Origin: a virus
Length of the DNA stretch: 64,000 bases
Virus record (IMG/VR): IMGVR_UViG_3300046698_000540
Location: 1 to 64,000 of that record
Strand: one strand, 5' to 3'
Shown: piece by piece, positions 8,946 through 31,957 of the stretch
Layout of the letters: the number at the start of each line of letters is the position of its first letter
Numbering within the stretch: position 1 is the stretch's first letter
The notes under the pieces: model-generated
What the model was told of the DNA's origin: nothing
The model's database searches: none
The model's input: the letters and a program-made list of their open reading frames with translations, nothing else
Program-made: the position numbers and the translations under genes

Positions 8946-9047
8946 AAGAGCGGCCAAGACAGAGCAGCGGAAATTAGCGATCCACTTCCCAGATCAAACG
9001 TACAGATCTTGCTTCAATGGGGCCGCTGCTCTGTCTTGACCGCTCTT
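8946..9047 (-). ncRNA. Structured element A: covarying stem with CRISPR-like core
   Basis: Two 25-base arms (8946-8970 and 9023-9047) pair along their whole length with one difference, which is a G-U pair in the minus-strand RNA but an A-C clash on the plus strand. Inside are GCGGAAATT at 8967-8975 and CTTGCTTCAATGGGGCCGC at 9008-9026 (plus-strand reading), both identical in element B at 31850-31957, separated by 32 unlike bases. It fills the gap between two genes. AGGAG precedes the 5' arm and the nuclease ATG follows the 3' arm, so folding brings the two together. It may be a leader RNA regulating translation. Confidence 0.75.
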
Positions 9048-9053
9048 ACTCCT

Positions 9054-9812
9054 CTAACGCTTCCTACCGGGCGCCTTTTTCTCCCCGCCCTTTGGCTTGC
9101 GGGGCACCAGCCTGGCCTTGCCCGATTTCGTAACCTTCACATCCGCTTCGCCGGTGTGAAGGACATGAACCACCTCCGCGCCGGTGGCTTCCTCCGCCTT
9201 GGGCTGTGCCCCGCGGCCGCGCTTCTTCGGAGGCGCCGGCAACCCCTTCTTGCGCGCCTTTTGTTCCTTGAACTCGCCGCAGGCGCACTCGGGATCAACA
9301 CATTCTTCCGTGTTCACTTCCGTCGTGCCTTCCTTGAACAGGTGAAGGTGCCCGCATGTGCATGCCAAACCCTGCTCCAAAGGCAACTCCTGCTGCAATT
9401 CCTCGATCATGAGACGGCCGCTCCAACCACGCACATCGTCCAGGAATGCGATGATCGCCTTGGCCAGGATGTCTGTCGTGATCTTGAAGGACACTGTGGC
9501 ACCGGAGCCGTCCAACTTCGTCGCCGCGAAACTTTTCACCGAACAGGACGGAATATGCAACAGCGCGTCTTTTTCCGCCGGTGTACCTGGTAGAGGATAA
9601 AACGAAACCCGCGCCGCCTCGATGTCGTGGTCAAAACCATGCGACGTAAATTCCGTCAGGGCGCCGTTTTTCCTGTACAGCTCCCCATTGCCCAATTCTT
9701 TGGCCAGCACTTCGCTCAATGCGCCCTCGATGGGAATCGAGCTGACCAGTTTCTCTCCTGTGCTCCTGAAACCCGTCGTACCTGTGACGGATGCTTCAAA
9801 AATTTCTAACAT
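9054..9812 (-). CDS. Hypothetical protein with C-terminal Cys/basic region
   Basis: A 252-residue protein. The N-terminal 150 residues look like a globular domain (GEKLVSSIPIEGALSEVL, GFDHDIEAARVSFYPLP, WSGRLMIEELQQELPLEQ). A cysteine-rich segment (CTCGHLH, ECVDPECACGEF) could bind zinc, and the last 60 residues are Lys/Pro/Gly-rich, as in DNA-binding tails. No family is recognised. It precedes element A and the exonuclease, suggesting a role in recombination or replication. Confidence 0.6.
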   Translation of the reverse strand: MLEIFEASVTGTTGFRSTGEKLVSSIPIEGALSEVLAKELGNGELYRKNGALTEFTSHGFDHDIEAARVSFYPLPGTPAEKDALLHIPSCSVKSFAATKLDGSGATVSFKITTDILAKAIIAFLDDVRGWSGRLMIEELQQELPLEQGLACTCGHLHLFKEGTTEVNTEECVDPECACGEFKEQKARKKGLPAPPKKRGRGAQPKAEEATGAEVVHVLHTGEADVKVTKSGKARLVPRKPKGGEKKAPGRKR

Positions 9813-9828
9813 GCGGTATTCTCCTTTT

Positions 9829-10371
9829 TCATTTCATTAAGCCGCGCGCCCTTAAAAGCGCCATGGCCCGTGTCTTGCCTGCTCCATGTCCGTTCTTGAA
9901 CTGTTCCTTCAGTTCCAGATCCTCACGTAACCGTTCTACGATAACACCAAGCAACCCAGGCGTACCTTCATCCTGCTGAACAATATCGAAAAGAGTCTGT
10001 AAAGGCGAGCCGCCAGCTACGTTATCTATGTAATTTCGCATACCTGGAACCTTCGTGGTCGCCAGGCCGTCCATGCACTGCTTCAAGTACTGGTCGATGA
10101 TGTGGATCTGAGGATGCTCGACCGAATCGATCTGGTCAACATCGTGTTCCTCCAGGAACTTGTTGCACGCGGCCATCCAAGGGAACATTTCTTCCGCAGG
10201 ATGCGTTTCAGGCACCTCGCTGGCGGCTGGTTTGCCGGATAGCTGTGTTGAGCGCTTTGTCTTTAGGTTCTCGCTTTTTCCGGGAGGCCAAAGCTCCTCC
10301 CATAGATCGTGATCTTCCGGTTTTCTTCCGGTTTTCTTCCGCGAATCTTCCGGACTTTTTTGTTTTGCCAT
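9829..10371 (-). CDS. Hypothetical helical protein
   Basis: A 180-residue protein. The start (MAKQKSPEDSRKK) is supported by AAGGTGGAG just before the ATG, although this places the first 55 codons inside the preceding gene in another frame. Later text (FPWMAACNKFLEEHDVDQI, IHIIDQYLKQCMDGL, GVIVERLREDLELKEQF, AMALLRARGL) is strongly helical. No family is recognised. It is packed 16 bases before the next gene. Confidence 0.55.
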   Translation of the reverse strand: MAKQKSPEDSRKKTGRKPEDHDLWEELWPPGKSENLKTKRSTQLSGKPAASEVPETHPAEEMFPWMAACNKFLEEHDVDQIDSVEHPQIHIIDQYLKQCMDGLATTKVPGMRNYIDNVAGGSPLQTLFDIVQQDEGTPGLLGVIVERLREDLELKEQFKNGHGAGKTRAMALLRARGLMK

Positions 10372-10663
10372 GCTCCACCTTGCCGTCCAACTTGTACCTC
10401 ACCCGGATCTGCAAAAGGCCGGCCGGAATGTTCAATGAGATCGGCTGCTCCGCCAGGATCTGGTCCACAATCTCTTTCGGCGCGTCTCCCACCTTCTCCG
10501 GGTGCTCTCTTTCAAACCACAGATAGTAAGGGCACATGAACTGATCTGGAAGTTTGCAGGCGCCGTTGTCAAACCCGTGGATACACTTCCCGTCCTGAAC
10601 CTGAGGAGCACATGTCAGGGGGATTGGCAGCTTCTTCCGAGGCTCAACTTTTGGTGATGGCAC
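10208..10663 (-). CDS. Hypothetical protein with central cysteines
   Basis: A 151-residue protein starting at a GTG with AAGGAGG six bases upstream. The central part holds four cysteines (TCAPQVQDGKCIHGF, ACKLPDQFMCPYY), which could form a zinc or redox site. The last 50 codons overlap the downstream gene and read as a Lys/Arg-rich tail, so the C-terminal part may be of little functional weight. No family is recognised. Confidence 0.5.
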   Translation of the reverse strand: MPSPKVEPRKKLPIPLTCAPQVQDGKCIHGFDNGACKLPDQFMCPYYLWFEREHPEKVGDAPKEIVDQILAEQPISLNIPAGLLQIRVRYKLDGKVEHGKTKKSGRFAEENRKKTGRSRSMGGALASRKKREPKDKALNTAIRQTSRQRGA

Positions 10664-10838
10664 ACTCAGCCTCCTTGTCACCTTGCCATCTCTTCGTAGG
10701 CTTCTCTTGGTATACCAAAAGTCCGCGAATAAACCCAATCAATATCAGCCCCCTCCTATGGAACTTTTCAAAATCCACAAGCCATCTCGCGGGAACGAAA
10801 TCCCGATCTTGCTCCAATTCCAATAAAGACCAGTTCAT
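10644..10838 (-). CDS. Small hypothetical protein
   Basis: A 64-residue protein starting MNWSLLELEQDRD in an ATGA overlap with the upstream gene. It has a helical N-terminus and an Ile/Leu-rich middle (GLILIGFIRGLLVYQ) too short and interrupted to be a confident membrane helix. No family is recognised. It overlaps the next gene's GTG start by 20 bases, consistent with coupled translation. Confidence 0.5.
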   Translation of the reverse strand: MNWSLLELEQDRDFVPARWLVDFEKFHRRGLILIGFIRGLLVYQEKPTKRWQGDKEAECAITKS

Positions 10839-11572
10839 TGGACCCTTCCCGAAGGTTCTCCTAGCGGCCGCGGAATGACCTTGATCGTCAAGGCACCCTT
10901 ACCAAGACCATACTCTTCCAGCGCCTTCAACGCCTGCTTGCCCATCTCATCCTCCAGGCGGCCCGCCATTGCCAGCTCAGCGATCATCCAGTAGTCTGGC
11001 ACCTCCTTCTCGATCCTGTGCACCAGGCGCCCCAAAGACTCGCGGAGAATGCTGTTGGAACTGTTCCGAATACCGTCAAGCTGGACCAAAACCCATCGGG
11101 CTTGAGCATCTTTCTTTTTGCTGTCCTTCCACTTCTTCGCCCATTCCTCGACGTGGCCCTCCCATACCTCGTGCTTGGGATAAATCAACCTCTCCTGATA
11201 GGGGGGAACACACTTGGCGTCCAGGATCACCTCCAGGGCGCCATTCGTGTTGGCGAACTTGCACCATTGATCGTCTATGATTTGCGGAGGCCATTCTATA
11301 GGTTGCCCACCAAGGATCTTGCAAGCCTCGATCCTGAAATCCGCCGTCAAAACCAGCTCTGCACTTTCCACATGAAACAACACGGGTGGCTTTTCTTTTG
11401 GAATACCATCCTCGTCCAACTCGGCGCCTGCCGTGGCACCGGTATCATGCACTGGATAAGCGTAAGGATTGCCTGTCGCCCACGACATGGATAGATGCCA
11501 CCCACGGATCGGAAAGGGCTCCTCCTTCAGAGCTGTGAAGAGATCCTTTCTGACTTTGCTCGGCTGATTCAT
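10835..11572 (-). CDS. Hypothetical protein following the resolvase-like gene
   Basis: A 245-residue protein starting MNQPSKVRKDLF, coupled to the upstream gene by ATGA behind GGAGG. It contains beta strands and charged helices (LFHVESAELVLTADFRIEA, EEWAKKWKDSKKKDAQARW, SILRESLGRLVHRIEKE). No motif is recognised. The neighbouring RecA, resolvase-like and exonuclease genes suggest a recombination accessory role, but this rests on position only. Confidence 0.55.
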   Translation of the reverse strand: MNQPSKVRKDLFTALKEEPFPIRGWHLSMSWATGNPYAYPVHDTGATAGAELDEDGIPKEKPPVLFHVESAELVLTADFRIEACKILGGQPIEWPPQIIDDQWCKFANTNGALEVILDAKCVPPYQERLIYPKHEVWEGHVEEWAKKWKDSKKKDAQARWVLVQLDGIRNSSNSILRESLGRLVHRIEKEVPDYWMIAELAMAGRLEDEMGKQALKALEEYGLGKGALTIKVIPRPLGEPSGRVQ

Positions 11573-11964
11573 CGCTCCTCCAATAATTGCCTGAAGATCT
11601 CGTATGGAACCAGGGCCCATTTCTCCGGCTCGTACATCATCTGCCCGGTCAATTCCAGCACCAGAGCGGGTTTTTTTCGCTGCTCGAATGCCTCCAGCTT
11701 CAGCTTGCGCAGCGTCTGGAGACTGAGAGAATACGAAAGCGCGCGGGTGATTTTGCTCTCCACCAGGAATTCCGCGGTGAGGACGTCGCCGCCCTTCCCG
11801 TCGAAGCACCCAGAGCCTGGCTGCTGCCGGCCGCCCAAGTCTTTAGCCAGATCCTTCTCCCGCCGGCGGCCTTGTTTCTGCGGAGTCTCGTTGCGGCCCG
11901 CCTTACTAAATGGTAGGGGGCGTTCCCTCGGGCCCGGCTGAAACCGGGGAGAATCTGATCTCAT
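11569..11964 (-). CDS. Resolvase-like PD-(D/E)XK nuclease
   Basis: A 131-residue protein. The sequence GSGCFDGKGGDVLTAEFLVE then SKIT provides the Gly-rich loop, metal-binding Asp and E-x-K of the PD-(D/E)XK fold, followed by SYSLSLQTLRKLKLEAFEQ and PALVLELTG, the arrangement common in phage Holliday-junction resolvase-type proteins (VRR-NUC or RecB-like). It would cleave branched DNA after RecA-driven recombination. The ATG is preceded by GGAG and lies inside the upstream gene, a 59-base overlap. Confidence 0.65.
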   Translation of the reverse strand: MRSDSPRFQPGPRERPLPFSKAGRNETPQKQGRRREKDLAKDLGGRQQPGSGCFDGKGGDVLTAEFLVESKITRALSYSLSLQTLRKLKLEAFEQRKKPALVLELTGQMMYEPEKWALVPYEIFRQLLEER

Positions 11965-12118
11965 AGTCCTCCATCAATCTCTTAATCTCCAAAAGCAAGC
12001 GCCCCGATGCTGTGGCCCCAAATTCCACAATATCCAGGTCGTTCCCCTCCAGAGTCACCCGTATGCATCCACCGGATAGGAGTTGCACTTCCTTGGCCCA
12101 CCAGAGCTTTTCAGCCAC
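11906..12118 (-). CDS. Small hypothetical protein
   Basis: A 70-residue protein that I start at a GTG overlapping the upstream stop codon (GTGGCTGA); a longer frame would run inside the preceding gene. It reads as a small beta domain (WAKEVQLLSGGCIRVTLEG, LDIVEFGATASGRLLLEIKR). No family is recognised. It lies between RecA-linked small genes and the resolvase-like nuclease. Confidence 0.45.
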   Translation of the reverse strand: MAEKLWWAKEVQLLSGGCIRVTLEGNDLDIVEFGATASGRLLLEIKRLMEDYEIRFSPVSAGPEGTPPTI

Positions 12119-12335
12119 GAGGGCACCTTCGCATCTTCCATTCCATGATGTCCGCGATCTCAAGAAATTCATAAGTATCGCAGCACGTAAACGCCACAGC
12201 CGATGCTAACTGATCTGCGTTTTTTCGAATCATCTCCGCAGCTTCCCTATCCGCCATTGTTGCAGACCTGATAAATAGGGCATCCTTAGCCCGTCTTTGA
12301 ATGCAGCCGCGCAACAAGTCCCTCTTACTACTCAT
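12111..12335 (-). CDS. Small hypothetical protein downstream of RecA
   Basis: A 74-residue protein whose ATG is embedded in the end of recA (ATGAGTAG) and preceded by GGAGG. The N-terminus is basic, followed by helical text (DREAAEMIRKNADQLASAV) with a CC pair. No family is recognised. Tight overlap on both sides supports it being translated. Confidence 0.5.
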   Translation of the reverse strand: MSSKRDLLRGCIQRRAKDALFIRSATMADREAAEMIRKNADQLASAVAFTCCDTYEFLEIADIMEWKMRRCPRG

Positions 12336-13542
12336 GTTTTTCCTCCAACACCGGAGCAATCGCTGTGGCAACCACCAGGGAGCCTATCTCTTCCTGCGCT
12401 TTTTTCTGGACGACCGCGCGCAAGACTTCGAACTGATCCTGCTCGTACAGCGCCCCAAAGAACGCTTCCTCCCCTTGAGCCCTGACCTTACCGAAGCTGA
12501 ACCAAGAGCCGGCCTGCACCACAATGCCCCACCGCTTGGCGTAGTCGTAGATCGTAGCGTCGTTGTCGATCGACGCCTCACTGAAATTCACCTGGAAGGA
12601 GCCCATTCGCCGGGGACTGAACACCTTGTTCTTGACCGTCATAAAGTTGAGCCATACCGACTCCGCGGCGGCCTCGTGCGCTTCCTTATCACCGATCATC
12701 GTGAAATCGGAATTGGAAAAGGCCAACTGCAGCTCGATGCTGGCCATGTGCCGAAGCGCGTGGCCGCCAGGAGGCTGCGGAGGCATGGGGTAGCTGCTGT
12801 TGATGACATCGCGGAGCTGATTCAACGCGAAAATGGTGCATAGATTGTCCCACATCTTCGGCTGAGCCTTCCCATCCGGGCCTTCCTCTTTCAGCTTGGG
12901 GTGCGGCTGCTTCACGTTCAACCCAGCTTGCCATGCCCGCGTTCCTCTGGTGACGATTCTCGCCAAGGCGCCGGGGGAAAGCCCATCCGACGCCGATTTT
13001 TCAATCACCTCGGCTGGCGACATGGCAGCAATGGAGTCTATCACGATGATGCTGATCTCTGGACATCGCACCAGGCTGGAAACGTAGTCGATCCCTTCCT
13101 CCCCGAACTCGACCGGAACGTAAAGGAACAGGTCTGGGTCGATGTTCATTTTCTGGCGCCATTCCATCGAATCCGAATGCTCCACATCCACCCATGCCGA
13201 CGCGATCGGATCGTTAGCGCCACAATCGCAGCCTCCCTGCTTCACCAATGTGGTGCACCACTGGCAGAATTTTTGCGCCTCGGCGATTGCTTTGTACGAA
13301 AGGAAGGACTTGCCTGTGGAGGGCTTGCCAAACAGATGATTCAGCCGACCGCGGGGCCAACCTCCGCCAGTCTCCAGATCCAAGGCAAAACAGCCTGTGG
13401 GGATGCGGGGAACCCGCTTGAACATCATGCGGCTGCCCACCATGACCACTTCGGCCTCATACTCCTTGTTGATGCGCGCGGCTACGCGCTCCAACTTGGT
13501 GCGGACAATTCCCGCTTTGGAATTTTTTGACTGTTGCGCCAT
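12328..13542 (-). CDS. recA: RecA-like recombinase with Cys4 insertion
   Basis: A 404-residue strand-exchange ATPase. Walker A is GKPSTGKS (about 72-79), Walker B is IIVIDSIAAM and the L2-like DNA-binding region covers the segment ending ALNQLRD and PPGGHALRH. Between the Walker A helix and the following strand an insertion brings C93, C96, C105 and C107 (CQWC, then CDC), a likely zinc knuckle that E. coli RecA lacks. The start is the ATG after AGGAGTGAAC. The C-terminal domain is short compared with bacterial RecA. It probably acts with the Cas4-like exonuclease and resolvase-like nuclease in the same operon. Confidence 0.92.
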   Translation of the reverse strand: MAQQSKNSKAGIVRTKLERVAARINKEYEAEVVMVGSRMMFKRVPRIPTGCFALDLETGGGWPRGRLNHLFGKPSTGKSFLSYKAIAEAQKFCQWCTTLVKQGGCDCGANDPIASAWVDVEHSDSMEWRQKMNIDPDLFLYVPVEFGEEGIDYVSSLVRCPEISIIVIDSIAAMSPAEVIEKSASDGLSPGALARIVTRGTRAWQAGLNVKQPHPKLKEEGPDGKAQPKMWDNLCTIFALNQLRDVINSSYPMPPQPPGGHALRHMASIELQLAFSNSDFTMIGDKEAHEAAAESVWLNFMTVKNKVFSPRRMGSFQVNFSEASIDNDATIYDYAKRWGIVVQAGSWFSFGKVRAQGEEAFFGALYEQDQFEVLRAVVQKKAQEEIGSLVVATAIAPVLEEKHE

Positions 13543-13544
13543 GT

Positions 13545-13745
13545 TCACTCCTGGTAGAATCCAACCTTGCCCACTGAGTTGCCGTTCACGTCGAGGATCT
13601 TCCGATCCTCACCGCTGTTTGCGATATTGTGAAGCCTTGTCCCTCCTTTGGCGACAAGTTGGACGAGTGCACGGCGCACATCAAACGCCGTCTTCATAGC
13701 TTCATTTCCCAACTCAATCTCGATCCGGAACACCGTTTTTGCCAT
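13545..13745 (-). CDS. Small hypothetical protein upstream of RecA
   Basis: A 66-residue protein starting MAKTVFRIEIELGNEAM in the GAACATGG context. It looks like a small alpha/beta domain (FDVRRALVQLVAKGGTRL, GEDRKILDVNGNSVGKVGFY). Similar small proteins with a K-x-x-F-x-I-E-I start occur in many phages without known function. It stops 2 bases before the recA start, so it is co-translated. Confidence 0.6.
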   Translation of the reverse strand: MAKTVFRIEIELGNEAMKTAFDVRRALVQLVAKGGTRLHNIANSGEDRKILDVNGNSVGKVGFYQE

Positions 13746-13760
13746 GTTCTCCCTCACTAC

Positions 13761-13795
13761 TGCGGCGCCTAGAGCCTCAAACCCTAAGCGCCGCA
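13761..13795 (-). other. GC-rich intergenic hairpin
   Basis: Arms TGCGGCGC and GCGCCGCA (8 bp, perfect) enclose a 19-base loop in the short gap between two small genes. There is no T-run on the minus strand. It belongs to a set of similar hairpins at gene boundaries in this genome, perhaps sites of RNA processing or protection of upstream mRNA ends. Confidence 0.5.
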
Positions 13796-13816
13796 AAGTC
13801 GCCCGGCGCCGGCGGC

Positions 13817-13996
13817 CTACTCGCCCGCCTCGGCCTGAGCCTCTCCAAGAGCATCGTTTAACTGACCTACGAGAAGAATTATCTTCTCCAGGATCTTCGG
13901 AATCTTCTTCGACCCCTCCACGCAAGCCTCCAGGCGGCCCGCGTCATCCGACAACTTGCCGATCAGCTTCACGACTTTCTGAATTTTCTTGTTCAT
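13817..13996 (-). CDS. Small helical protein
   Basis: A 59-residue protein starting MNKKIQKVVKLIGKL after a G-rich ribosome-binding site (GGGGGTGA). It is almost entirely helical with heptad-like hydrophobic spacing (KILEKIILLVGQLNDALGEA) and could form a small coiled coil. The only cysteine is central. No family is recognised. Confidence 0.6.
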   Translation of the reverse strand: MNKKIQKVVKLIGKLSDDAGRLEACVEGSKKIPKILEKIILLVGQLNDALGEAQAEAGE

Positions 13997-14032
13997 CGTA
14001 TCACCCCCTTTCCCAATGAAAACTTCGGAACA

Positions 14033-14056
14033 CCGGGAGGACCGCACACCTCCCGG
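14033..14056 (-). other. GC-rich intergenic hairpin
   Basis: A perfect 8 bp stem (CCGGGAGG with CCTCCCGG) with an 8-base loop stands 37 bases upstream of the small helical protein's start. No T-run follows. The remainder of the 163-base gap to the next gene shows no supported gene. Confidence 0.5.
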
Positions 14057-14159
14057 GTCCTGCCGGCCAGGAATTTTGGTTGTACCTATTCACCTTTCAG
14101 CTGGCCTTGACCGTGGGCCTCGACGTTGCGGCGTTGTACCCATTCCACCCGGCTCGAAC

Positions 14160-14381
14160 TTACTCCGCGGCCTTTTTCTTGCGCCCTTTGCGGGGCTTCT
14201 GTTCGGCACCCTCGGCCGGCAATTCTGCGCCCGCCATGTATTCCTGCTTGCTCTTTTGCTTGCGCGGCCGTTTGGTACCAAATTCCGCCACGGCCAAATT
14301 CAGAACCACCTCGCGCTTCTCCTTGGGAAGGTTGCGAAGCGATTCCATGATTCTCACTTCGTCAGAACTACGTCTCGGCAT
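14160..14381 (-). CDS. Small basic protein
   Basis: A 73-residue protein starting MPRRSSDEVRIMESL behind AGGA. The N-terminal half is helical (LPKEKREVVLNLAVAEF) and the C-terminal half is Lys/Arg-rich (KRPRKQKSKQEY, KPRKGRKKKAAE), suggesting nucleic-acid binding. No family is recognised. It follows the probable ssDNA-binding protein after a 107-base gap in which I see nothing. Confidence 0.55.
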   Translation of the reverse strand: MPRRSSDEVRIMESLRNLPKEKREVVLNLAVAEFGTKRPRKQKSKQEYMAGAELPAEGAEQKPRKGRKKKAAE

Positions 14382-14488
14382 AAATTCCTTTCAAAAACGC
14401 GCCGGAGGTATCTCTAGGCCGACTCGCACGGCTCCAGCGCCTCTGCCAGGGTGTTATCTTCAGCTCGACTCTCACGAGCCTGGCGAAC

Positions 14489-15304
14489 TCAGTACGCAAC
14501 TTCTGTAGTCGATTCCTCGCCGGCGCCGCCCTGCTGGATGTTCTGCGATCCCATCCAGGCCAGAGCTTCCGCCCGAGTCTTCGGCCGCAAAATCGCCGGG
14601 TAGTCGATCGGCTTCACCAGCGCCTTGAACTGCCAGTTGAGCTTCTTGCCCACTGCGGGATTCTGTGTATCCAGGATCGTGATTTCCCGCTCCGGCATCC
14701 CGGTCATCTTGACCTTGATCTTCTTCGTGGGCAGCCGCTCTACGAAATCGAACACGTTGCCCATGTTCGGACTCTTATCTCCCGACCGCGAAACCCTGAA
14801 CCAGCAGCCGGCCAGGTCGCCGCCGCGGGCGTCGGCCAAGATCCGAAGAGCCTTCAGTGCGTCGCCTTTCGCCGGGTACAACGTGGTCTCCCACCGGTGA
14901 ATGGTGCCGTCCTTGGCCTTCCACTCGGATCCATCCAGGACCGTGTAGGCGCCCACGAAATAGTTCTTGTTGCCGGCCTCGTCGAAGCAGCATTTTTCGC
15001 CGGTCCCGATCAAGCACGTATTCCAGTTGCGCCAATGGCCGTCCAGATAAAACTGGTGCTCACGATACGTGAACGGGATTCCGTCCACGAACACCACATT
15101 GTTCACCAGCGTCTTCGGAGGCGTGCCCGTCTTCTCGGGCATCCAATATCGCCGGATGGCGTTGGCCCAATCCTCGCGCTGTTTGTCAAGACGCTGAACT
15201 TCCTGGCCCACTGAATCGTAGCCAGTTTGAAACCACCCCCCGCCTCCGGCAGGAGCTTCGGCAGCGGGGCTACCACCGCCTTTTGTCGTCTGCTTTTTTG
15301 CCAT
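14489..15304 (-). CDS. Probable phage single-stranded DNA-binding protein
   Basis: A 271-residue protein. After a Gly-rich N-terminus come RYWMPEKTGTPPKTLV, VVFVDGIPFTYREHQFY and NWNTCLIGTGEKCC, a layout seen in many phage ssDNA-binding proteins: a conserved WMP/WLP, a strand with an acidic-aromatic pair, an 'EH' and a Cys pair near the OB fold. The later part (ILADARGGDLAGCWFRVSRSG) also fits an OB-type core. Unlike bacterial SSB it lacks the C-terminal DDDIPF tip; that peptide instead ends the uracil-DNA glycosylase at 25878-26846. The assignment is by pattern, not certain. Confidence 0.55.
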   Translation of the reverse strand: MAKKQTTKGGGSPAAEAPAGGGGWFQTGYDSVGQEVQRLDKQREDWANAIRRYWMPEKTGTPPKTLVNNVVFVDGIPFTYREHQFYLDGHWRNWNTCLIGTGEKCCFDEAGNKNYFVGAYTVLDGSEWKAKDGTIHRWETTLYPAKGDALKALRILADARGGDLAGCWFRVSRSGDKSPNMGNVFDFVERLPTKKIKVKMTGMPEREITILDTQNPAVGKKLNWQFKALVKPIDYPAILRPKTRAEALAWMGSQNIQQGGAGEESTTEVAY

Positions 15305-15353
15305 ACTGTTTTTCCTTTGTTGTGAGTTGTCGTTTCCTACACTGACACTACCG

Positions 15354-15713
15354 TCAATATCTCCGCTTGCCGGTTTTTGCCTGCGCGCCTCCTTTGAATG
15401 TGGTCGATGCCGGTTGAGCCTCGCCGGTCCTCTCGTGAAGAGACCTGCGAACGTCGATCGACTGTCCTTCGATCTCGTGAGAAACGAAATCCTTGGCCCT
15501 GAGGAGGGCCTTTTCCAGGGTTTCGTCCGGTCGAACGTCCGTCGCCATTCCCGCGTCTACGCGAGCTGACTCATAGTTGCCGAGATTCAGAGTCAACCCG
15601 CATGAAAAGAAAACCCGATCCGGAATCCCTGTGTTCACGGGCCCCAAGCCGCCTTGCATGCGCAAACGCTCAGCCGCCACCAGGGATTCCTGTCCCGCCT
15701 TCGCTTTTCCCAT
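15354..15713 (-). CDS. Hypothetical protein
   Basis: A 119-residue protein starting at the ATG in GGTGAACATGG. The central segment FFSCGLTLNLGNYESARVD followed by DETLEKALLRAKDFV resembles a phage family in which an N-Y-E-S-x-R-x-D strand precedes a helix; its function is not known to me. The last 30 residues are Lys/Gly-rich. Its first 44 bases overlap the end of the upstream gene. Confidence 0.6.
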   Translation of the reverse strand: MGKAKAGQESLVAAERLRMQGGLGPVNTGIPDRVFFSCGLTLNLGNYESARVDAGMATDVRPDETLEKALLRAKDFVSHEIEGQSIDVRRSLHERTGEAQPASTTFKGGAQAKTGKRRY

Positions 15714-16443: not shown

Positions 16444-16452
16444 AAAAACCTC

Positions 16453-17088
16453 TTATTTCAGCAGCTTAGGCAGGAGAGCGTAGGTGGGGTCCGGCTTATC
16501 CAGAATCGCCTCCAACTCGGATGGAGATATCAATTGCGCCAGGCATAGACCGTCCACCTTATCTGAGTTGACCTCTTCGACGATCTCCACGCCCATGTCC
16601 CGCAATTGCTTGCGATTCTTCCACAGGAATTTCTGAAACAAATCCCCGCAAGTGGTGATACGCAAATCTACCGCAGCGTCCCACAGCTTCTTCTTTTTCA
16701 GAAGCGTTTCCAGCTTCTCCGGATTCGGCCGCCAGGACCTTTTCTCCTGAATCGTGAGCTGGCCCAGGCCGGGATACTCGAACAGCCTGTGCTGATTCTT
16801 GTCCCCTGTGGGGGAGCCTTCCTCCCGGCGCATTTGAAGGCCGTAGTTTTCCTCTTCCTTGTCCTTGATCTTTTCCAGGAGTTTTGCAATGCGCTTCGCC
16901 ATCGCATCGAGGACGATGTAGAGCGGCACCAGCCGGTTTGTGGGAATAACCGCGACCTCACCGGCCTCCACCAGAGCGATCAACTGCTTAGGCGTGGAAA
17001 CCAGAGCCACTTCCGCGCCGGTCCCTTTCAAGTCTTGAAGCACATCTTCAGACACAACTTCAACCGTCACTGCCGTTTTCTTTGCCAT
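16453..17088 (-). CDS. Hypothetical protein, first gene after promoter P1
   Basis: A 211-residue protein starting MAKKTAVTVEVV in the AAGGTGAACATGG context. It contains a long charged helix (DAMAKRIAKLLEKIKDKEEE), then QHRLFEYPGLGQLTIQ, a WRPNPEKLETLLKKKKLWD helix and a helical C-terminus. No family is recognised. It is the first gene behind promoter P1 and its folded leader, so is probably strongly expressed early. Confidence 0.6.
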   Translation of the reverse strand: MAKKTAVTVEVVSEDVLQDLKGTGAEVALVSTPKQLIALVEAGEVAVIPTNRLVPLYIVLDAMAKRIAKLLEKIKDKEEENYGLQMRREEGSPTGDKNQHRLFEYPGLGQLTIQEKRSWRPNPEKLETLLKKKKLWDAAVDLRITTCGDLFQKFLWKNRKQLRDMGVEIVEEVNSDKVDGLCLAQLISPSELEAILDKPDPTYALLPKLLK

Positions 17089-22858: not shown

Positions 22859-22864
22859 GATTTA

Positions 22865-25870: not shown

Positions 25871-25877
25871 GTTCACC

Positions 25878-26846
25878 TCAAAATGGAACGTCGTCATCGT
25901 TGGGATCGAACAACGGCGTTGCGGCTTGCTTCCTCGGCTTCGCCGGTTTCTTCTCCATCAGGAATTTGTCGTAAGGCGTCAACTGCACCACGTCCTTCAC
26001 CTTCTCCACGCCGTCTTCCCCTTCCACCTCGATCGACGTGATGTATTTGTCCTTCTGTGAGGCCAAAAGTTTCCCCGGTCGCTGGCTGTTCACCTCAGCC
26101 TCATGCTTCGCCGATTCCGACCGCGGCAATGGTTTGTCCGCCCAACCCCTGTCGGGGTCATAGACGAAATCGTGCTTTGACTTCAAATCCAGCTCGAAGT
26201 ACTCGCCGCACTTGCCGGCCAAATAATCTCGGGCCAGTTTGAAGTCTTCGTAAACCTGAGTCTTCATCTCGGCGTTTTCTTCCCTGAGCAGGTATGACGG
26301 ATGGTACGTGGCCAATCCAACCACTTCGCCATACCCGATCGTAAGAAATTTTCCGCGCACTGAACCAATCCGAAGAGTGGCGGGATCCGCGCCAAGCAAA
26401 CCATGCATCGCTGTGGACCCAACCGCCAGGATCAGCCTCTTATTGGGCAGAGCTTCCAATTGCCGGCGCAAAAATCCCGCGCAATTGCTGGATTCCTCCG
26501 CGGTGGGCGTCCTGTTCTTGGCCCAACCCGAGTCCATGATGTCGCAACAGCGGCATTTGCACATGTTCAGGAAATATGTGTTCGTCTCGTTGTATCCGAT
26601 CGACTCAAGACCCCTGTGAAGCAATTTTCCAGCGCGGCCGACAAATGGGATGCCCTGCTTATCCTCATCGTCTCCAGGGCCTTCGCCGAGAATCACCAGG
26701 CGCGCCAGGGGACTTCCCTTGCCGAACACCGAATGTTTCCGGGTGAGGGCGATCTGGCACTTGTGGCAACTGGCCGCCTCCCGCTCGATTTGCGTGAGCA
26801 GCTTCAACGTGCGTTTGCGAACCTCTTCTCCCGTTTCCATGACCAT
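25878..26846 (-). CDS. Uracil-DNA glycosylase (FeS family 4/5) with SSB-like acidic tip
   Basis: A 322-residue protein. Residues 27-30 (CHKC) plus later cysteines (MCKCRCC) are the iron-sulfur ligands of family 4/5 UDGs; [22 protein letters not shown] holds the uracil-binding loop and [10 protein letters not shown] the DNA-intercalating HPS motif. It removes uracil from DNA. About 110 extra residues follow the catalytic domain and end in DPNDDDVPF, the same type of peptide with which bacterial SSB (DDDIPF) recruits repair proteins. That tip on a glycosylase is unusual. Confidence 0.9.
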
Positions 26847-27060
26847 GTATCCTTGCTAAGACCTGCAGGTGCCTGATTTCGCTGCGGAGATTTGCAATGC
26901 GCCGCTCCAAACGATACCTCTCGCCGCGGTGAAGCTGCTTTTCGTCCTCCACCTGTCTTTCCAGGTCACCTATCCGACTATGAAGTTTAGCTAGTGCCAC
27001 ATCAAAATCTTTGGACATCTGAACAGACGCCCTGGCTGCCTCGTTGATAATACCGCTCAT
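26665..27060 (-). CDS. Coiled-coil protein overlapping the UDG gene
   Basis: A 131-residue protein starting [12 protein letters not shown] after GAGGAGATCT. The first 70 residues are a coiled coil ([37 protein letters not shown]). The rest overlaps the UDG start by 182 bases in another frame and is His/Gly/Arg-rich, as expected for a frame not shaped by selection, so the functional part is probably the N-terminus. No family is recognised. Confidence 0.5.
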
Positions 27061-27068
27061 AGATCTCC

Positions 27069-28307
27069 TCAGTATTTCATCTCGCTGGGGTCAATTCCCG
27101 AAGAATATCCGCCACCTTCTTCATCCTCCAGGGAATCGAACTCCATGCCTTCCAGGTCCCACTTGATACGGACCGGATAAGTAGGCAAGTCCTCTTCGCG
27201 GATTTTCAGGAACTGCGCCAGCATCTCTTTGTTGATCCGCTCATCAGAACCTTGCACCAGCTTCAAAGCCCAATCGCAGAACTGGCTGTAGGCATCCGAA
27301 TAGGCAGCGTTGTCCAAAGTGGCATTCCGCGGATCTTCTTCCCTGTTCAACTGGTTGTTCACCACCCATTTGGAGCGATCCTGCTTCGCGGCCGCTTTTA
27401 TTCCACGGGCAACCGACATGCGGCCTTCCCAACCGGTGAGGCCTTCGTCGTTGTCCACCAGATATACACCGTCGATCCCGATCCAGGTAACGCCGGCCTG
27501 GCGGGCCATGGCTTGAATCGAAAGAGGCGTGCAGGGGCCGTCGAACTCCGGAAAATACAACGACGCCATTCCTTCCATCTCGGAAAGCGCCTGGTAGTAT
27601 TGCTTTTCCAGAACGTTGCCAAGTTCACCGCGGCGAAACGCCTGGTAGGGAAGTTTCGCATGAAGAGCGTCGTACCGATTCTCCAACGCTAGGCGATCCA
27701 TTTCCCGGGAAACCAGCATCACGCGCTCGCCGGAAAGTTGCGCCGCGTGCGCCATCATCATAAGCTGCCAGGTTTTTCCGGTTCCCCGTTTGCCTAGAAC
27801 GTATCCGAAGTCCCCAGGTTGCACACCCAACGTCCATTTATCAAACCAGGCGAACCCTGAGGGTGTGCCATAGAGGTTGATCTTGTCTCTACGCTGCTCA
27901 TAGCGGAATTTTCTTTCCGCCATGTTTCGGGTGACGTCCAGCAGCCGTGTGGAGGATCTGAGCGCGGCGATCTCCATGCTGCCTTTGGCCAGGACGTCGG
28001 CCGCCAGGTCCACGTCATCCACCTTCATGGCGGCGCCCATGGAGGCCATGATGCCGGAAATCCGGTTGTAACGAGTCCTCTTCCTCAGCTCCTCCACTAC
28101 CCACTCGGGCTGCTCCTTGTGATGTTCCAGCGCATAGCTGGCATGTTTCCTGCGGATGATCGACTCTGCCGGCAGCTTGCCGTGAAACTTGGGATTCGCC
28201 CAATAGGCCCAGATGAACGCGGCGACTTCCTTCATAGGCCCCTGGAAATCCTCAACTGTGAGTCCACCGGAGACGAAGGGTTCCAGCTTCCCCTCCGTCA
28301 GGATCAC
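27069..28307 (-). CDS. DnaB-like replicative helicase
   Basis: A protein of at least 412 residues. Walker A is LGKRGTGKTW, Walker B is WIGIDGVYLV, and LVSREMDRLALENR and WVVNNQLNRE match DnaB/RecA-fold helicase motifs. An N-terminal helical domain precedes. The start is unclear: no ATG lies near the upstream stop at 28316, and I use a GTG (VILTEGKLEPF) lacking a good ribosome site; the open frame runs on to 28490. It probably is loaded by the DnaC-like ATPase at 32107. Confidence 0.8.
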   Translation of the reverse strand: MILTEGKLEPFVSGGLTVEDFQGPMKEVAAFIWAYWANPKFHGKLPAESIIRRKHASYALEHHKEQPEWVVEELRKRTRYNRISGIMASMGAAMKVDDVDLAADVLAKGSMEIAALRSSTRLLDVTRNMAERKFRYEQRRDKINLYGTPSGFAWFDKWTLGVQPGDFGYVLGKRGTGKTWQLMMMAHAAQLSGERVMLVSREMDRLALENRYDALHAKLPYQAFRRGELGNVLEKQYYQALSEMEGMASLYFPEFDGPCTPLSIQAMARQAGVTWIGIDGVYLVDNDEGLTGWEGRMSVARGIKAAAKQDRSKWVVNNQLNREEDPRNATLDNAAYSDAYSQFCDWALKLVQGSDERINKEMLAQFLKIREEDLPTYPVRIKWDLEGMEFDSLEDEEGGGYSSGIDPSEMKY

Positions 28308-28315
28308 GTCTATGG

Positions 28316-28516
28316 CTATCTTGTCAAGATCCGTGGCACACCTCCCGGACCAACAGGCACCTTCACCATGGCGAGATCCGCCGGCGCCCCGCAATGATCG
28401 CAGTGAAACACCACGCCATCGAACAGACTTGAGAGACAGTACCCCGTGAGCATGAGCGGATGATATTGGCAGCAACAGGTCATGCACCAATCCTGATAGG
28501 GGCTATTTTGCGCCAC
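28316..28516 (-). CDS. Small cysteine-rich protein
   Basis: A 66-residue protein starting at a GTG (GGAGG seven bases upstream). It contains CMTCCCQYH, a second Cys in GYCLSSL and CDHCGAP, probably one or two zinc sites. Such small zinc-ribbon proteins are frequent among phage early genes. It overlaps the upstream gene by 14 bases. Confidence 0.6.
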   Translation of the reverse strand: MAQNSPYQDWCMTCCCQYHPLMLTGYCLSSLFDGVVFHCDHCGAPADLAMVKVPVGPGGVPRILTR

Positions 28517-28673
28517 TGAAATACCTCCGCAGAATGGCGCTCACCTGTCCTTTCCTTGCTTCTCCCGGAGGCGGCAGCTCGTCTTCTGAAGGGAACAACA
28601 CCTTGCAAATTTCTTCCGTAATGTCATCAAAGCTGTCGTGCTTCCGACTTAAAATCTTTCGTATCTTAGCCAT
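28503..28673 (-). CDS. Very small hypothetical protein
   Basis: A 56-residue protein starting MAKIRKILSRKHDSF in the GAACATGG context. It is helical with a basic N-terminus (DDITEEICKVLFPSEDEL, VSAILRRYF). No family is recognised. Confidence 0.5.
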   Translation of the reverse strand: MAKIRKILSRKHDSFDDITEEICKVLFPSEDELPPPGEARKGQVSAILRRYFSGAK

Positions 28674-28681
28674 GTTCCCCC

Positions 28682-28987
28682 TCAATAAATCGCCGTTACC
28701 GCGCAACCTCGACCGTGCCTGGACGCCACCTGAAGGAGGTTCATCTTCTCGGGCGGATTTCCGGCGCCATTGTTGATGAGCACGTAACAGGAATCGTCCA
28801 CGAGGATGTCATTCTTGGGATCTGAAATTCCCAGGAACGCCTGCGGAGGCATGGCGTCCGGCTTGTACGCGTAGATGCAGAAGTTTCCATCCGGATCTCT
28901 TTGCGCACCCAAATAATCCAGCGACTCCAGGAGCTCCTTCTGCGAAATAAGCCGGCCTTGCCGGAGTGGTGGCAGAGGTTTACTCAA
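28682..28987 (-). CDS. Small hypothetical protein
   Basis: A 101-residue protein that I start at a TTG (LSKPLPPLRQGRL) because AAGGAG stands six bases upstream and the longer frame overlaps the preceding gene. It has alternating strands and helices (ISQKELLESLDYLGAQRD, NFCIYAYKPDAMPPQAFLG, DDSCYVLINNG). No family is recognised. Confidence 0.5.
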   Translation of the reverse strand: MSKPLPPLRQGRLISQKELLESLDYLGAQRDPDGNFCIYAYKPDAMPPQAFLGISDPKNDILVDDSCYVLINNGAGNPPEKMNLLQVASRHGRGCAVTAIY

Positions 28988-29243
28988 GGCCGTCTCCTTC
29001 CTTCGGTAAATCCGCGATTTTTCCGTGTTTGGAAGCCCACGCCTCCATGCGGTCCGCCTGCCGCATTGCTGACGACGTGCATACATCCGAACCGCCGTTG
29101 ACTTTGTTCAGATGTGCCCACGCCCTAACCGTCGCGGCACCCACCATATCCCGGCCCAGAACCAAAAACACTGGCTCCTCGTCCGGAATCAGGTGTGCCG
29201 AATCCTGGATCCGTTCCGTATAGTCTTTTCTCGCGTGCTGCAT
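28980..29243 (-). CDS. Small hypothetical protein
   Basis: An 87-residue protein starting MQHARKDYTERIQDS in the GTGAACATG context, with GGAGG upstream. PVFLVLGRDMVGAATVRAWA followed by SAMRQADRMEAWASKHG resembles small phage proteins thought to modulate host enzymes, without a named family. It overlaps the next start by 8 bases. Confidence 0.55.
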   Translation of the reverse strand: MQHARKDYTERIQDSAHLIPDEEPVFLVLGRDMVGAATVRAWAHLNKVNGGSDVCTSSAMRQADRMEAWASKHGKIADLPKEGDGLE

Positions 29244-29245
29244 GT

Positions 29246-29437
29246 TCACTTCCTCCTGATCTTTTGGCTGCTCACCAACTCGAAAGACTCGACCTTGACG
29301 TCCACCCCCGCCACATCCGCCATTTCCAACTGCTTTCGCAACTGGCCCTCTTCCGAAGGCTTTTCGCCGGCGTCAACGAAAGTTTCCTCTGTCAGAAGCA
29401 CAACCGCGCGATACTTCGTAACTAAAACGTTTTCCAT
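29246..29437 (-). CDS. Small hypothetical protein
   Basis: A 63-residue protein starting MENVLVTKYRAVVLLTE in AAGGTGAACATGG. It is a mixed beta/alpha sequence with a basic end. No family is recognised. It follows the zinc-ribbon gene by 2 bases. Confidence 0.5.
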   Translation of the reverse strand: MENVLVTKYRAVVLLTEETFVDAGEKPSEEGQLRKQLEMADVAGVDVKVESFELVSSQKIRRK

Positions 29438-29439
29438 GT

Positions 29440-29613
29440 TCACCTTTCCATAGCGCAGGCAGGACACCTGTACTCAATTATCTCCTTGCCATAACCTAAG
29501 GGCACCACAACAGCACAAGTGTGACCACACTCCAATTCAAGAATCACCGCCTCCTGGTCTGGAGCCATAATCCCTAGGGGGTCTCCTTTAGACCTACGCA
29601 AAACTTTCTTCAT
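29440..29613 (-). CDS. Tiny zinc-ribbon protein
   Basis: A 57-residue protein starting MKKVLRRSKGDPLG; AGGAG lies 7 bases before the ATG. It has ECGHTCAVVV and RCPACAMER, so Cys/His and a CxxC pair that fit a zinc ribbon. Its stop codon (TGA) overlaps the GGTGAACATG start signal of the next gene, indicating coupled translation. Confidence 0.55.
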   Translation of the reverse strand: MKKVLRRSKGDPLGIMAPDQEAVILELECGHTCAVVVPLGYGKEIIEYRCPACAMER

Positions 29614-29626
29614 TGGATTGCTCCTT

Positions 29627-29839
29627 CTACCTTTCCATGGTTGACCCGATCAAAATACCTAGTACGAGAGCTTGGTGGATCTTAGCTGCCAGCCCTGTGG
29701 TGGCATTATCTATGAGAGCCAGGGTCATAGTCAGAACCCAAGTTTCCCTTCCGAGTTCTTGAAACGACTCAACTATCGCAGGATCTTGCGCGGCGAATTT
29801 TTCGAAAATAGATGTGCCTGCTTCTTCCAAAGTCATCAT
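29627..29839 (-). CDS. Small hypothetical protein
   Basis: A 70-residue protein starting MMTLEEAGTSIFEKF, with its ATG overlapping the TGA upstream. The second half is hydrophobic (TWVLTMTLALIDNATTGLAA, ALVLGILIGS), perhaps one or two weak membrane segments. No family is recognised. Confidence 0.5.
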   Translation of the reverse strand: MMTLEEAGTSIFEKFAAQDPAIVESFQELGRETWVLTMTLALIDNATTGLAAKIHQALVLGILIGSTMER

Positions 29840-30321
29840 CGAAGTATGCTCGCATCCCACTGATCCACGTATATAACCAGCGACGTGGGCAGGTACTTGG
29901 CCAACTCCTTGTCGCGCGTATAGAAGCGCAGCGCGCGCTCGCCTCGGCAGTATTGGTGCACGTCCATCGCCTGTCCTCCATAGTCCGGCGAAGGCACCAA
30001 ATGAAATCCGCTGTTGGGGAACTCTCCTAAGACGTACTCCACCGCCTTGACCAAACCGGCCGCGTAGGGCGCCCGCACAAGAACTTCAATACGAAGGCCC
30101 TTGTCCAACAGCCACCAGCCTGCCGTTTCCGCTTCCTTGGTGAGCTTGTACCTGGCGATGTAGAAAGGCAGCAGTTTCCGGAACAACCAACGAGTCCAAC
30201 GGTGATCTCGGAGCCATTCGTAAATCTTGAGGCCCCAACCTGGCTCTGGCGCCTTAACCAGAGCATCGAAGTCTATCACCACCAGGGGCGCCAACTTGTT
30301 GGAAATATCTCTACGCATCAT
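29836..30321 (-). CDS. Hypothetical protein, possible HAD-like fold
   Basis: A 161-residue protein starting MMRRDISNKLAPLVV. VVIDFDALVKAPEPGWG followed by WLRDHR gives a strand with acidic residues near the N-terminus, as in HAD-like phosphatases, but the second Asp of DxDxT is replaced. The remainder (LLDKGLRIEVLVRAPYA, VKAVEYVLGEFPNSGFHL) fits a Rossmann-like protein that may be catalytically inactive. The start could also be the ATG 24 bases upstream. Confidence 0.5.
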   Translation of the reverse strand: MMRRDISNKLAPLVVIDFDALVKAPEPGWGLKIYEWLRDHRWTRWLFRKLLPFYIARYKLTKEAETAGWWLLDKGLRIEVLVRAPYAAGLVKAVEYVLGEFPNSGFHLVPSPDYGGQAMDVHQYCRGERALRFYTRDKELAKYLPTSLVIYVDQWDASILR

Positions 30322-30469
30322 AAGGCACCAGAGCGTGCGAACCATTGCTCGAATTAGGGCACTTCGTTACCTTATCGACCTGACTGAAAACTTGCAAGCA
30401 TCGGACGCATTGAATAGCCTTAGCATATTGCAATGCCACCAGAGCGTAGGCATAATCCTTTTCTTTCAC
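30311..30469 (-). CDS. Tiny CxxC protein
   Basis: A 52-residue protein starting at a GTG (KEKDYAYALVALQYAKA), AGGAG eight bases upstream. It has IQCVRCLQVF and a later Cys/His (KCPNSSNGSHA), consistent with a small zinc site. Its end overlaps the start of the next gene. It follows the hairpin at 30489-30516. Confidence 0.5.
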   Translation of the reverse strand: MKEKDYAYALVALQYAKAIQCVRCLQVFSQVDKVTKCPNSSNGSHALVPYDA

Positions 30470-30488
30470 TTAGCAGTCTCCTAAAAGG

Positions 30489-30516
30489 AGGGCGCGGCGA
30501 TACTCTGTCGCGCCCT
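30489..30516 (-). terminator. Possible bidirectional intrinsic terminator
   Basis: Arms AGGGCGCG and CGCGCCCT (8 bp) around a 12-base loop. On the minus strand the stem is followed by CCTTTTAGG, a short T-run; on the plus strand it is followed by TTTTT, which is stronger, but no plus-strand gene is supported. It may attenuate transcription leaving the DUF932 gene. The tiny CxxC gene starts 20 bases downstream. Confidence 0.5.
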
Positions 30517-30527
30517 TTTTCGCCCGA

Positions 30528-30677
30528 CTAAAGGGTACGGGGGCTATGGTCTGCCGAGTCAAACTCCGAAGAGCGCCCGTTCCAAACCGAATCTGCCGGG
30601 GCTCGCCATTCGATGTGCGCCCCCAATCGGATCCCCTGGCCTCGGTCATCTCCCGTATCGAGACTCCTCAATGGCAC
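30528..30677 (-). CDS. Doubtful tiny protein downstream of the DUF932 gene
   Basis: A 49-residue frame from a GTG (PLRSLDTGDDRGQGIRLG) with AAAGGA eight bases upstream, ending directly before the hairpin at 30489-30516. It reads as a plausible hydrophilic protein (AHIEWRAPADSVWNG) but has no recognised motif. A second frame of 58 codons also spans this area, so the call is weak. Confidence 0.3.
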   Translation of the reverse strand: MPLRSLDTGDDRGQGIRLGAHIEWRAPADSVWNGRSSEFDSADHSPRTL

Positions 30678-30717
30678 TCAGGTTTTCCTTTACAGAGTTC
30701 TTACGCCCCCGATAAAT

Positions 30718-31821
30718 TCAGGCGGCTACAAGTTCCTGCCAGTCGCGCTGGCTCAATTCAATCACCTGGCCGCCGGCGCGTTCCAAATCCACCGAGCGCT
30801 CGTAGGAAACCGACTCGTCATTCGCCACGGCCGTTATCGCTTGCGCAAGGCCCCACTGGGATAAATCTCCCCCCTGAATCAGATTCTTCAGGATCGAGTC
30901 CCCTTCCGTGTCGGTAAACCCGTACTTGGACTGCACCACTTCCTGAACTTCCTGAAGGGATGCGCCACCTTTGGGGATCTGGTTATCCGCCGCGGCGCGC
31001 ATTTTCTCGATGAACTTCTGGAAGTTGGCTTCATCGAAGCTGCCGCGCACCACGTCCACCACCTTGCGCCAGAATGCATTGTCGTCGGCCCTCCGCGTGG
31101 CGTCCGTGAAGAACTCCTCGACGCCTTCCATGTCCCCAACGCCGCGGCCTACATGGCGCCGCTTCAGAGAAGAGTCTGGACGGATCATCCCGTTGTAGCA
31201 AACCAAGCGGTAGAACGCCGGCTCGATCGAGATCTGCGAGTGGCCCACTTCCGAATTGGTGATGACCACGCCGGCCTGCACCACGTCGTTCAGCTTCACG
31301 GCCGCGGTGAGCCTGCTGGTGAACGCCTTGATGAAAAACCGCGTCTCGGTGATCTGAATGGACTCGATCCTCATGCCCTGCGCGTGCTCTCCCATCAGCG
31401 TAGGCACCACCGCTTTGAACAGGTCGTAGTTGTCGAGCGGCCGATACTTGTCGCCAAGGTACGCCCGAGCCTGGCCATCTAGAGTCCTGACCAAGCGCGT
31501 TTCATCCTGGTGTTGGAACCAGTAGTTCACGTTCAGAGGGACCAGCTCCGGACCGTTGTCCATCATGCGCTCGTAGTACTCCCATCGAATTTTGGTGCGC
31601 TCCGCGACCTGTTGGTGCGCCAATCTGCGCATAGGAAAAACACCCTGATCGCCTATGCTGAGAGCATATTTCATTTGGAACCCTTCCGGCGACTGCACCA
31701 CCTGGTAAGGATCCAAAACCTGGACTTGGAGTTTCGAGGACGGAGCCTTGAAATCCCGCTTAGTGTCCGCTTGCCTTTGAACTTCTTTAGCGAAATCGCC
31801 TAATGCCATTCCTTGTTTCAT
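30718..31821 (-). CDS. DUF932 phage/plasmid-like protein
   Basis: A 367-residue protein of the DUF932 family (phage/plasmid-like protein, TIGR03299-type), recognised by the run ARAYLGDKYRPLDNYDLF, RIESIQITETRFFIKAF, QAGVVITNSEVGHSQISIEP and RLVCYNGMIRPDSS. Members are widespread on phages and plasmids; their biochemical role is unknown, though they occur near replication and recombination genes. The ATG has GGAGAAGAAAC before it, and structured element B lies 29 bases upstream of the start. Confidence 0.9.
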   Translation of the reverse strand: MKQGMALGDFAKEVQRQADTKRDFKAPSSKLQVQVLDPYQVVQSPEGFQMKYALSIGDQGVFPMRRLAHQQVAERTKIRWEYYERMMDNGPELVPLNVNYWFQHQDETRLVRTLDGQARAYLGDKYRPLDNYDLFKAVVPTLMGEHAQGMRIESIQITETRFFIKAFTSRLTAAVKLNDVVQAGVVITNSEVGHSQISIEPAFYRLVCYNGMIRPDSSLKRRHVGRGVGDMEGVEEFFTDATRRADDNAFWRKVVDVVRGSFDEANFQKFIEKMRAAADNQIPKGGASLQEVQEVVQSKYGFTDTEGDSILKNLIQGGDLSQWGLAQAITAVANDESVSYERSVDLERAGGQVIELSQRDWQELVAA

Positions 31822-31849
31822 GTTTCTTCTCCATGTTCTGTTCTCTTGA

Positions 31850-31957
31850 TTGGGCTTCTTCGACTCATTGAAGCGGAAATTTTGCTTGCTCGCCTATCAA
31901 AACCGGAGCCACAGCCTTGCTTCAATGGGGCCGCTCCAATGAGCCGAAGAAGCCCAA
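31850..31957 (-). ncRNA. Structured element B: covarying stem with CRISPR-like core
   Basis: Two 27-base arms (31850-31876 and 31931-31957) are complementary with two differences, both G-U pairs if the RNA is read from the minus strand. The outer stem sequence is unrelated to that of element A, but the inner boxes are identical: GCGGAAATT (31873-31881) and CTTGCTTCAATGGGGCCGC (31916-31934), here 34 bases apart. It lies in the 285-base leader between the helicase loader and the DUF932 gene. Conserved core plus covarying stem indicates a functional RNA. The rest of the gap contains a smaller GGGCAC/GTGCCC hairpin and no supported gene. Confidence 0.75.

Follow-up and report, generated by a model that had tools for sequence, protein, structure and literature searches.

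CRISPR RNAs (crRNAs; CRISPR, clustered regularly interspaced short palindromic repeats) encoded outside ordinary host arrays have been described in several forms. The viruses SPV1 and SPV2 carry mini-arrays in which a host-type repeat surrounds one spacer in a genome without cas genes (PMC6858448; PMC11656645), and these spacers target array-near genes in close relatives, not in the carrier; the cause of this next-door targeting was called unclear in the 2019 mini-array paper (PMC6858448). Solitary repeat units and RNA anti-CRISPRs (Racr) are phage-borne, repeat-derived RNAs expected to engage a Cas6-type nuclease, as outlined in PMC10651486. The delocalized crRNAs of CRISPR-associated transposons and CreA are crRNA-like, lie outside arrays and have altered repeats (PMC11656645; PMC9458426). 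Here, we analyzed positions 1 to 64,000 of a 100,369-bp virus contig (IMG/VR record IMGVR_UViG_3300046698_000540); this stretch is called the window, and coordinates are given in its numbering. We report that it carries two elements on the minus strand, W1 (8946-9047) and W2 (31847-31960), which are almost certainly permuted type I-G CRISPR RNAs.

The two units resemble these systems and depart from each of them. Like the viral mini-arrays they surround a single spacer with host-type repeat sequence, but mini-arrays contain whole repeats, each with its own hairpin and at least one on either side of the spacer, whereas W1 and W2 have half a repeat per side and these halves pair across the spacer in far longer stems. 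A solitary repeat unit is one whole repeat without spacer and with no second repeat, even a partial one, nearby, and RacrIF1 lacks a 5′ handle according to PMC10651486, while the permuted units consist of two half-repeats at spacer distance and have a handle, a guide and a 3′ stem. With the type I-G arrays of Thioalkalivibrio sulfidiphilus, as far as PMC9638904 describes them, they share the repeat letters, the position of the predicted cut site and of the handle, and the spacer length, and they differ by their permuted order, their single spacer, the lack of a leader and the absence of visible cas genes. Delocalized crRNAs and CreA are not described as permuted in PMC11656645 and PMC9458426. 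CRISPR parts already known from viruses are whole repeats or mini-arrays, in contrast to a permuted unit without any whole repeat, and a search of the open PMC literature for crRNAs of phages that are permuted, delocalized or made of half-repeats or inverted repeats listed no title or abstract opening that describes such a unit. Finders of whole repeats (SRUFinder, as described in PMC10651486) would probably miss such units, and guides of this kind may be commoner than thought.

Two half-repeats paired across a spacer

Read on the minus strand, both elements have the order 5′-[arm]-GCGGCCCC|ATTGAAGC-guide-ATTTCCGC-[arm′]-3′. In W1, the 5′ arm (9023-9047) closes with GCGG, which is the 3′ half of the hairpin in the repeat, and is followed by CCCC and the 8-nucleotide (nt) handle ATTGAAGC (9011-9022), a 36-nt guide without any match found (8975-9010), and ATTT with a 3′ arm that opens with CCGC, the repeat's 5′ half (8946-8974). 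W2 has the same parts: 5′ arm (31931-31960), CCCC and handle ATTGAAGC (31919-31930), a 38-nt guide (31881-31918) and ATTT with the 3′ arm (31847-31880). By analogy with the T. sulfidiphilus nuclease Csb2, the predicted cuts fall between 9019 and 9018 in W1 and between 31927 and 31926 in W2. AAG opens both guides right behind the handle (9008-9010 and 31916-31918, minus strand), by shared ancestry or by chance.

An earlier note on this DNA had described both elements as inverted repeats of 25-27 bp with identical inner boxes and three imperfections, which are all G-U in minus-strand RNA. W1 and W2 do share these boxes letter for letter (GCGGAAATT and GCTTCAATGGGGCCGC on the plus strand), and the extent of W1 holds, with 25 uninterrupted pairs (24 Watson-Crick and one G-U). 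By contrast, W2 runs over 30 uninterrupted pairs (27 Watson-Crick and three G-U) and spans 31847-31960 and not 31850-31957, so that the imperfections number four, all of them indeed G-U with no A-C. That note had not recognized the boxes as two halves of a CRISPR repeat, nor the stretch between them as a spacer. In the 100,369-bp record, two copies of the 16-nt box GCGGCCCCATTGAAGC are present, each on the minus strand.

The identity of the repeat came from scanning bacteria and archaea, with one genome for each species, for the half-repeat pattern; this returned 88 stretches, most of them CRISPR arrays. These arrays are carried by Acidobacteria, Planctomycetes, Verrucomicrobia, Nitrospira and others, and their 36-nt repeat reads ATTTCCGC-hairpin-GCGGCCCCATTGAAGC. 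Such repeats numbered 1,085 in the genome loci that were fetched. Among them, 63 different inner hairpins were seen; 58 of these give a 36-nt repeat and 62 have 6-8 pairs. All nine array-adjacent open reading frames (ORFs) that had been picked for recurring beside the arrays matched type I-G families above the NCBIfam cut-offs (Cas4g/Cas1g, Csb2, Csb1, Cas3g, Csx17 and Cas8g2). The boxes of W1 and W2 are identical to the repeat halves of these arrays; thus, each phage element is a single CRISPR repeat split at its hairpin loop, with the two halves joined again on either side of a spacer, across which they pair. The guide lengths, counted up to ATTTCC, are also those of array spacers: among 1,037 array spacers, 36 nt is the commonest length and 38 nt the third commonest, and the guides of the ten viral units described below measure 35-42 nt. 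No Rfam family reached its gathering score in the window, nor in two array-bearing and two unit-bearing loci; since Rfam misses the arrays too, it neither names nor excludes anything here. A tRNA scan of the window found none.

Recurrence, covariation and sense strand

To place the stems against chance, we used pattern scans of IMG/VR that did not require outer pairing. Together with the two window units they gave 47 distinct matches with enough flank, divided into eight that belong to arrays or mini-arrays (L106 by a loose array rule only) and 39 non-array matches to the short core. The stem scores of these 39 were bimodal, 12-30 in eight and 0-2 in 31, and when arms were re-paired between loci, a score of 10 was reached once in 1,482 pairings and never exceeded. 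The stems are therefore not due to chance. A blind count without the window's own two elements gave six stemmed matches of 37. The eight stemmed units are W1, W2 and those of loci L005, L010, L011, L107, L108 and L118; the closing GCGG:CCGC is replaced by CGTGG:CCACG in L107 and by GTCGG:CCGAC in L108. A conserved core with unpaired stems, which would have spoken against a conserved RNA, was sought among the 11 IMG/VR stretches with full boxes, and only arrays, two-repeat mini-arrays and stemmed units were found there.

Candidates were also present on bacterial contigs from metagenome-assembled genomes (MAGs): L029 (10 bp), L039 (12 bp) and L080 (14 bp), the last with a palindromic arm, which may be an array remnant. 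The L039 and L080 contigs look chromosomal; the L039 unit (6640-6717, minus strand, 12-bp stem), on an apparently chromosomal contig of a Methylacidiphilales MAG, is either a prophage remnant or host-owned. The eight stemmed viral units, L029 and L039 form the ten-unit alignment A1. The earlier note had proposed a covariance model; the one searched here (R1), built from ten copies, found two further units outside the training set. In L010, the match at 2827-2907 scored 55.9 bits, with a 17-bp stem and CCTC before the handle; in L118, the match at 7618-7697 scored 31.1 bits, with degenerate boxes and a 15-bp stem, 14 nt past the first L118 model match. W1 (76.2 bits) and W2 (71.5 bits) are members of the training set. 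Thus L010 carries units at 1367-1449 (plus strand) and 2824-2910 (minus strand), and L118 carries two in tandem on the plus strand, at 7527-7601 and 7618-7697, the second with decayed boxes; three of the seven unit-bearing viral contigs have two units. R1 scans of four groups of bacterial genomes (247, 146, 288 and 294, the fourth group containing no known positive) returned arrays, seed loci and matches in genomes G043 and G109.

Ordinary CRISPR structures of this repeat family were also seen on viral contigs. Two-repeat, one-spacer mini-arrays lie at 1695-1752 of L004, also in L006, L007, L009 and L013 (five contigs), and at 308-366 of L008, also in L012. An ordinary type I-G array of at least five spacers, at a contig end (L001, 10305-10674, minus strand), may be host DNA.

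In A1, 95% of the 140 cells pair and both sides change in 12 of the 14 pairs. The covariation score was 0.929 compared with 0.213 for shuffled and 0.05-0.15 for slid alignments; because the members were chosen partly for pairing, these figures describe the set, and the independent test is the re-paired-arm control above. The cells comprise 125 Watson-Crick, eight G-U, one A-C and six other combinations. The excess of G-U over A-C (8 vs. 1) indicates an RNA on the minus strand in the window, which is the CRISPR sense strand. The earlier proposal of a conserved RNA was therefore borne out, with a more specific object, a CRISPR unit. A structured loop was considered and dropped, as the guides of ten units fold no more than 100 array spacers (mean z −0.48 vs. 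−0.10).

An unrelated structured RNA, or an mRNA-processing hairpin of phage operons with boxes that resemble a repeat by accident, would fit the location of units in intergenic gaps and the sense orientation of both window units to their operon. However, the letters conserved between unrelated phages belong to the type I-G repeat, stand in the correct halves and are separated by the length of a spacer, and five of the ten viral units run antisense to the adjacent genes, so that we consider this explanation very improbable.

Guides and the neighbouring genes

Each guide was compared with its own contig or locus. The best place for the W2 guide in the window was 31379-31416 (minus strand), in frame within the DUF932 gene directly downstream, with 24/38 identical positions (next best place, 23) and TTC on the 5′ side at 31417-31419. 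In frame 0 the guide encodes KAVAPVLIGEQA, and the DUF932 gene has KAVVPTLMGEHA in the same frame. This match within the gene was equalled by 33 of 20,000 shuffled guides and 0 of 160 array spacers, and the guide reached it in none of 109 other window segments. Two other units gave a similar result: the L011 guide matched the head-protein gene at 25/38, and the L108 guide matched at 24/36 a gene labelled portal-like without a family match, each being the next gene downstream. Dinucleotide shuffles within about 3 kb equalled the match 45 (W2), 3 (L011) and 4 (L108) times per 4,000, and array spacers did so in 4/290, 0/290 and 2/805 cases, respectively. Across all ten viral units, the Fisher combination gave 4e-4. 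The own sites are preceded by TTC, TTA and TTC, and the type I-G motif is TTN, as given in PMC9638904.

The differences between these three guides and their own sites fall on 25 of 36 third codon positions and on 14 of 76 others (p 2e-7), in a test independent of how the matched places were chosen. Moreover, the window DUF932 protein has a two-residue insertion relative to four GenBank phage homologues and the W2 guide encodes the same insertion, which places the source of the guide closer to the window phage than to those four. The guides of W2, L011 and L108, three of the ten viral units, thus most likely derive, judging from their sequence, from orthologues of the adjacent gene.

The own sites carry 2 (W2), 4 (L011) and 3 (L108) mismatches in the first eight guide positions, so the carrier should be spared, which would match the pattern reported for the viral mini-arrays (PMC6858448). 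These mismatches also bear on self-regulation, in which host Cascade would be guided to the phage's own adjacent gene and a partial match would allow binding without destruction. A CreA-type regulator keeps its seed in a partial match to a nearby promoter of its own genome. The matches of W2, L011 and L108 lie within genes, 70-450 nt from the unit, and their first eight positions are broken. Although a match in the next downstream gene with TTN and the precedent of CreA acting on creT (PMC9458426) speak for such a role, own sites of 24/38, 25/38 and 24/36 with mismatches chiefly at third codon positions, as for diverged orthologues, make it improbable.

Other candidates were examined and set aside. 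The best own match of the W1 guide (22/36, beside CCG and without codon bias) was rejected as chance. A masked-guide scan of IMG/VR returned none for W1 and a single match for W2, in L170 (23/38), which is not a DUF932 gene and was rejected. Comparison of the window with 1,156 extracted sequences (array spacers and chance pattern matches), made for a clue to the host, gave short, chance-level matches only. A six-base periodicity was not retained either: mismatches occupied 14 of 18 positions divisible by six and 11 of 18 other third positions, and as the third codon positions of all three guides fall on multiples of three, the codon effect is inseparable.

Proposed action and genomic setting

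A guide role of the units is likely, and our preferred reading, to which we give a probability of roughly two in three, is that each element is a permuted crRNA precursor for a host type I-G system, aimed at the orthologue of the neighbouring gene in sibling phages. In a normal array each repeat contains a hairpin of its own; in the permuted unit, the hairpin loop would be replaced by the stem's open end. As the stem base, the 4-nt CCCC linker and the ATTGAAGC handle are unmoved, host Csb2, a Cas5-Cas6 fusion, would bind the stem, its greater length probably making up for the missing loop. For the T. sulfidiphilus enzyme, PMC9638904 reports a cut 4 nt beyond the stem that gives a handle of 8 nt; the enzyme remains bound to the stem, with a dissociation constant of about 43-55 nM. 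The CCCC^ATTGAAGC position corresponds to this published cut in sequence and in spacing. Once the unit is transcribed, a single cut ahead of ATTGAAGC would yield an ordinary crRNA with an 8-nt handle, a guide of 36-38 nt and a two-strand 3′ stem, for use by host Cas7, Cas8g and Cas3. The guide would then attack the orthologue in sibling phages, while the diverged copy of the carrier would escape. Such a unit is a compact crRNA design (one cut, about 80-115 nt); it bears on how phages turn host immunity against each other and on why viral spacers target the next-door gene.

Several results weigh against this reading. A perfect or near-perfect protospacer was not found for any guide searched, nor was a related virus carrying the target or a relative with an empty site. 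The other seven viral guides, W1 included, had no significant match on their own contig (shuffle fractions from 0.041 for W1 to 1.0). The guides of L011 and L108 each have a stop in the frame of the matched gene and thus are no simple copies of a functional gene; the stop-causing bases are at guide positions 6 and 30, respectively, and since Cas7 flips every sixth base out of pairing (PMC9638904), these two cases fit drift where the base does not matter. A simple sigma-70 scan showed no promoter at the window units. None of these phages has a known type I-G host, and Csb2 was not found in six MAGs, including the unit-bearing L029, L039 and L080, in a search whose control was also silent.

The failure to find a target, and the fact that every unit has a different guide, are what would be expected of an RNA anti-CRISPR decoy, a non-targeting crRNA that would occupy Csb2 and Cas7 and so protect the phage whatever its guide. 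There is a precedent in RacrIF1, which sequesters Cas6f and Cas7f; interference was weakened by a non-targeting crRNA as well (PMC10651486). However, a decoy predicts neither the adjacent-gene homology of three guides nor the codon-position bias nor TTN, and the units retain spacer length and the 5′ handle absent in RacrIF1. We therefore regard it as an unlikely explanation, although the least unlikely of the three alternatives considered.

Beyond the crRNA precursor itself, we tentatively suggest, as a possibility that falls short of even odds, that the units are RNA-guided, protein-free homing elements of about 100 bp. Host Cascade and Cas3 would cut the neighbour gene of siblings without the unit, and repair from the carrier would copy the unit together with the cut-proof gene. 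The free-standing homing endonucleases of T4, which act by intronless homing as presented in PMC2988022, also sit in intergenic gaps and target the gene next to them in sibling phages; they are proteins, whereas here RNA specificity and a host nuclease would act, and spread by homing is hypothetical. In this reading, the permuted fold would provide a complete crRNA from one Csb2 cut with no whole repeat in the DNA, and this would avoid loss by repeat recombination and host spacer insertion. A free-standing HNH endonuclease gene lies in the W2 operon region (33304-33912, minus strand), and protein-based homing may occur here too.

Concerning gene context, W1 ends 6 nt ahead of the in-frame ATG (8939) of a Cas4-like phage exonuclease ORF (8046-8957, minus strand; phrog_1706, E 3e-17), and W2 ends 25 nt ahead of the start of the DUF932 gene (30718-31821, minus strand; PF06067, E 4e-11; phrog_1362). 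The location upstream of minus-strand genes, pointed out before, is thus right for W1 and W2 and fails as a general rule: judged by these ORFs, five units (W1, W2, L010b and both in L118) have the same sense as the adjacent genes and five are antisense, so that several would need their own promoter. The window units, between co-directional genes, could be cut from the operon transcript; their 25- and 30-bp stems may also suit RNase III. Nine of the ten viral units lie in gaps between ORFs. The exception, L005 (6295-6380, plus strand; 14-bp stem), lies antisense within an ORF resembling Mu Gam and would thus have to serve as coding sequence too; its 42-nt guide is the longest. A major head protein (L011) and large terminases (L107 and L108) are among the products of genes next to units.

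Among the proteins scanned, a selection of the proteome, there was no type I-G cas gene; the ORFs include a UvsX-like recombinase, helicases, a DNA polymerase, a primase, a helicase loader, portal and tail. The DNA polymerase has distant phage relatives only, with at most 26% identity among the 20 matches listed and none confirmed in IMG/VR. Finally, the phage itself encodes, in locus L172, a queuine tRNA-ribosyltransferase-like protein (phrog_887; 3744-4817, minus strand, about 86744-87817 of the record), perhaps for DNA modification.

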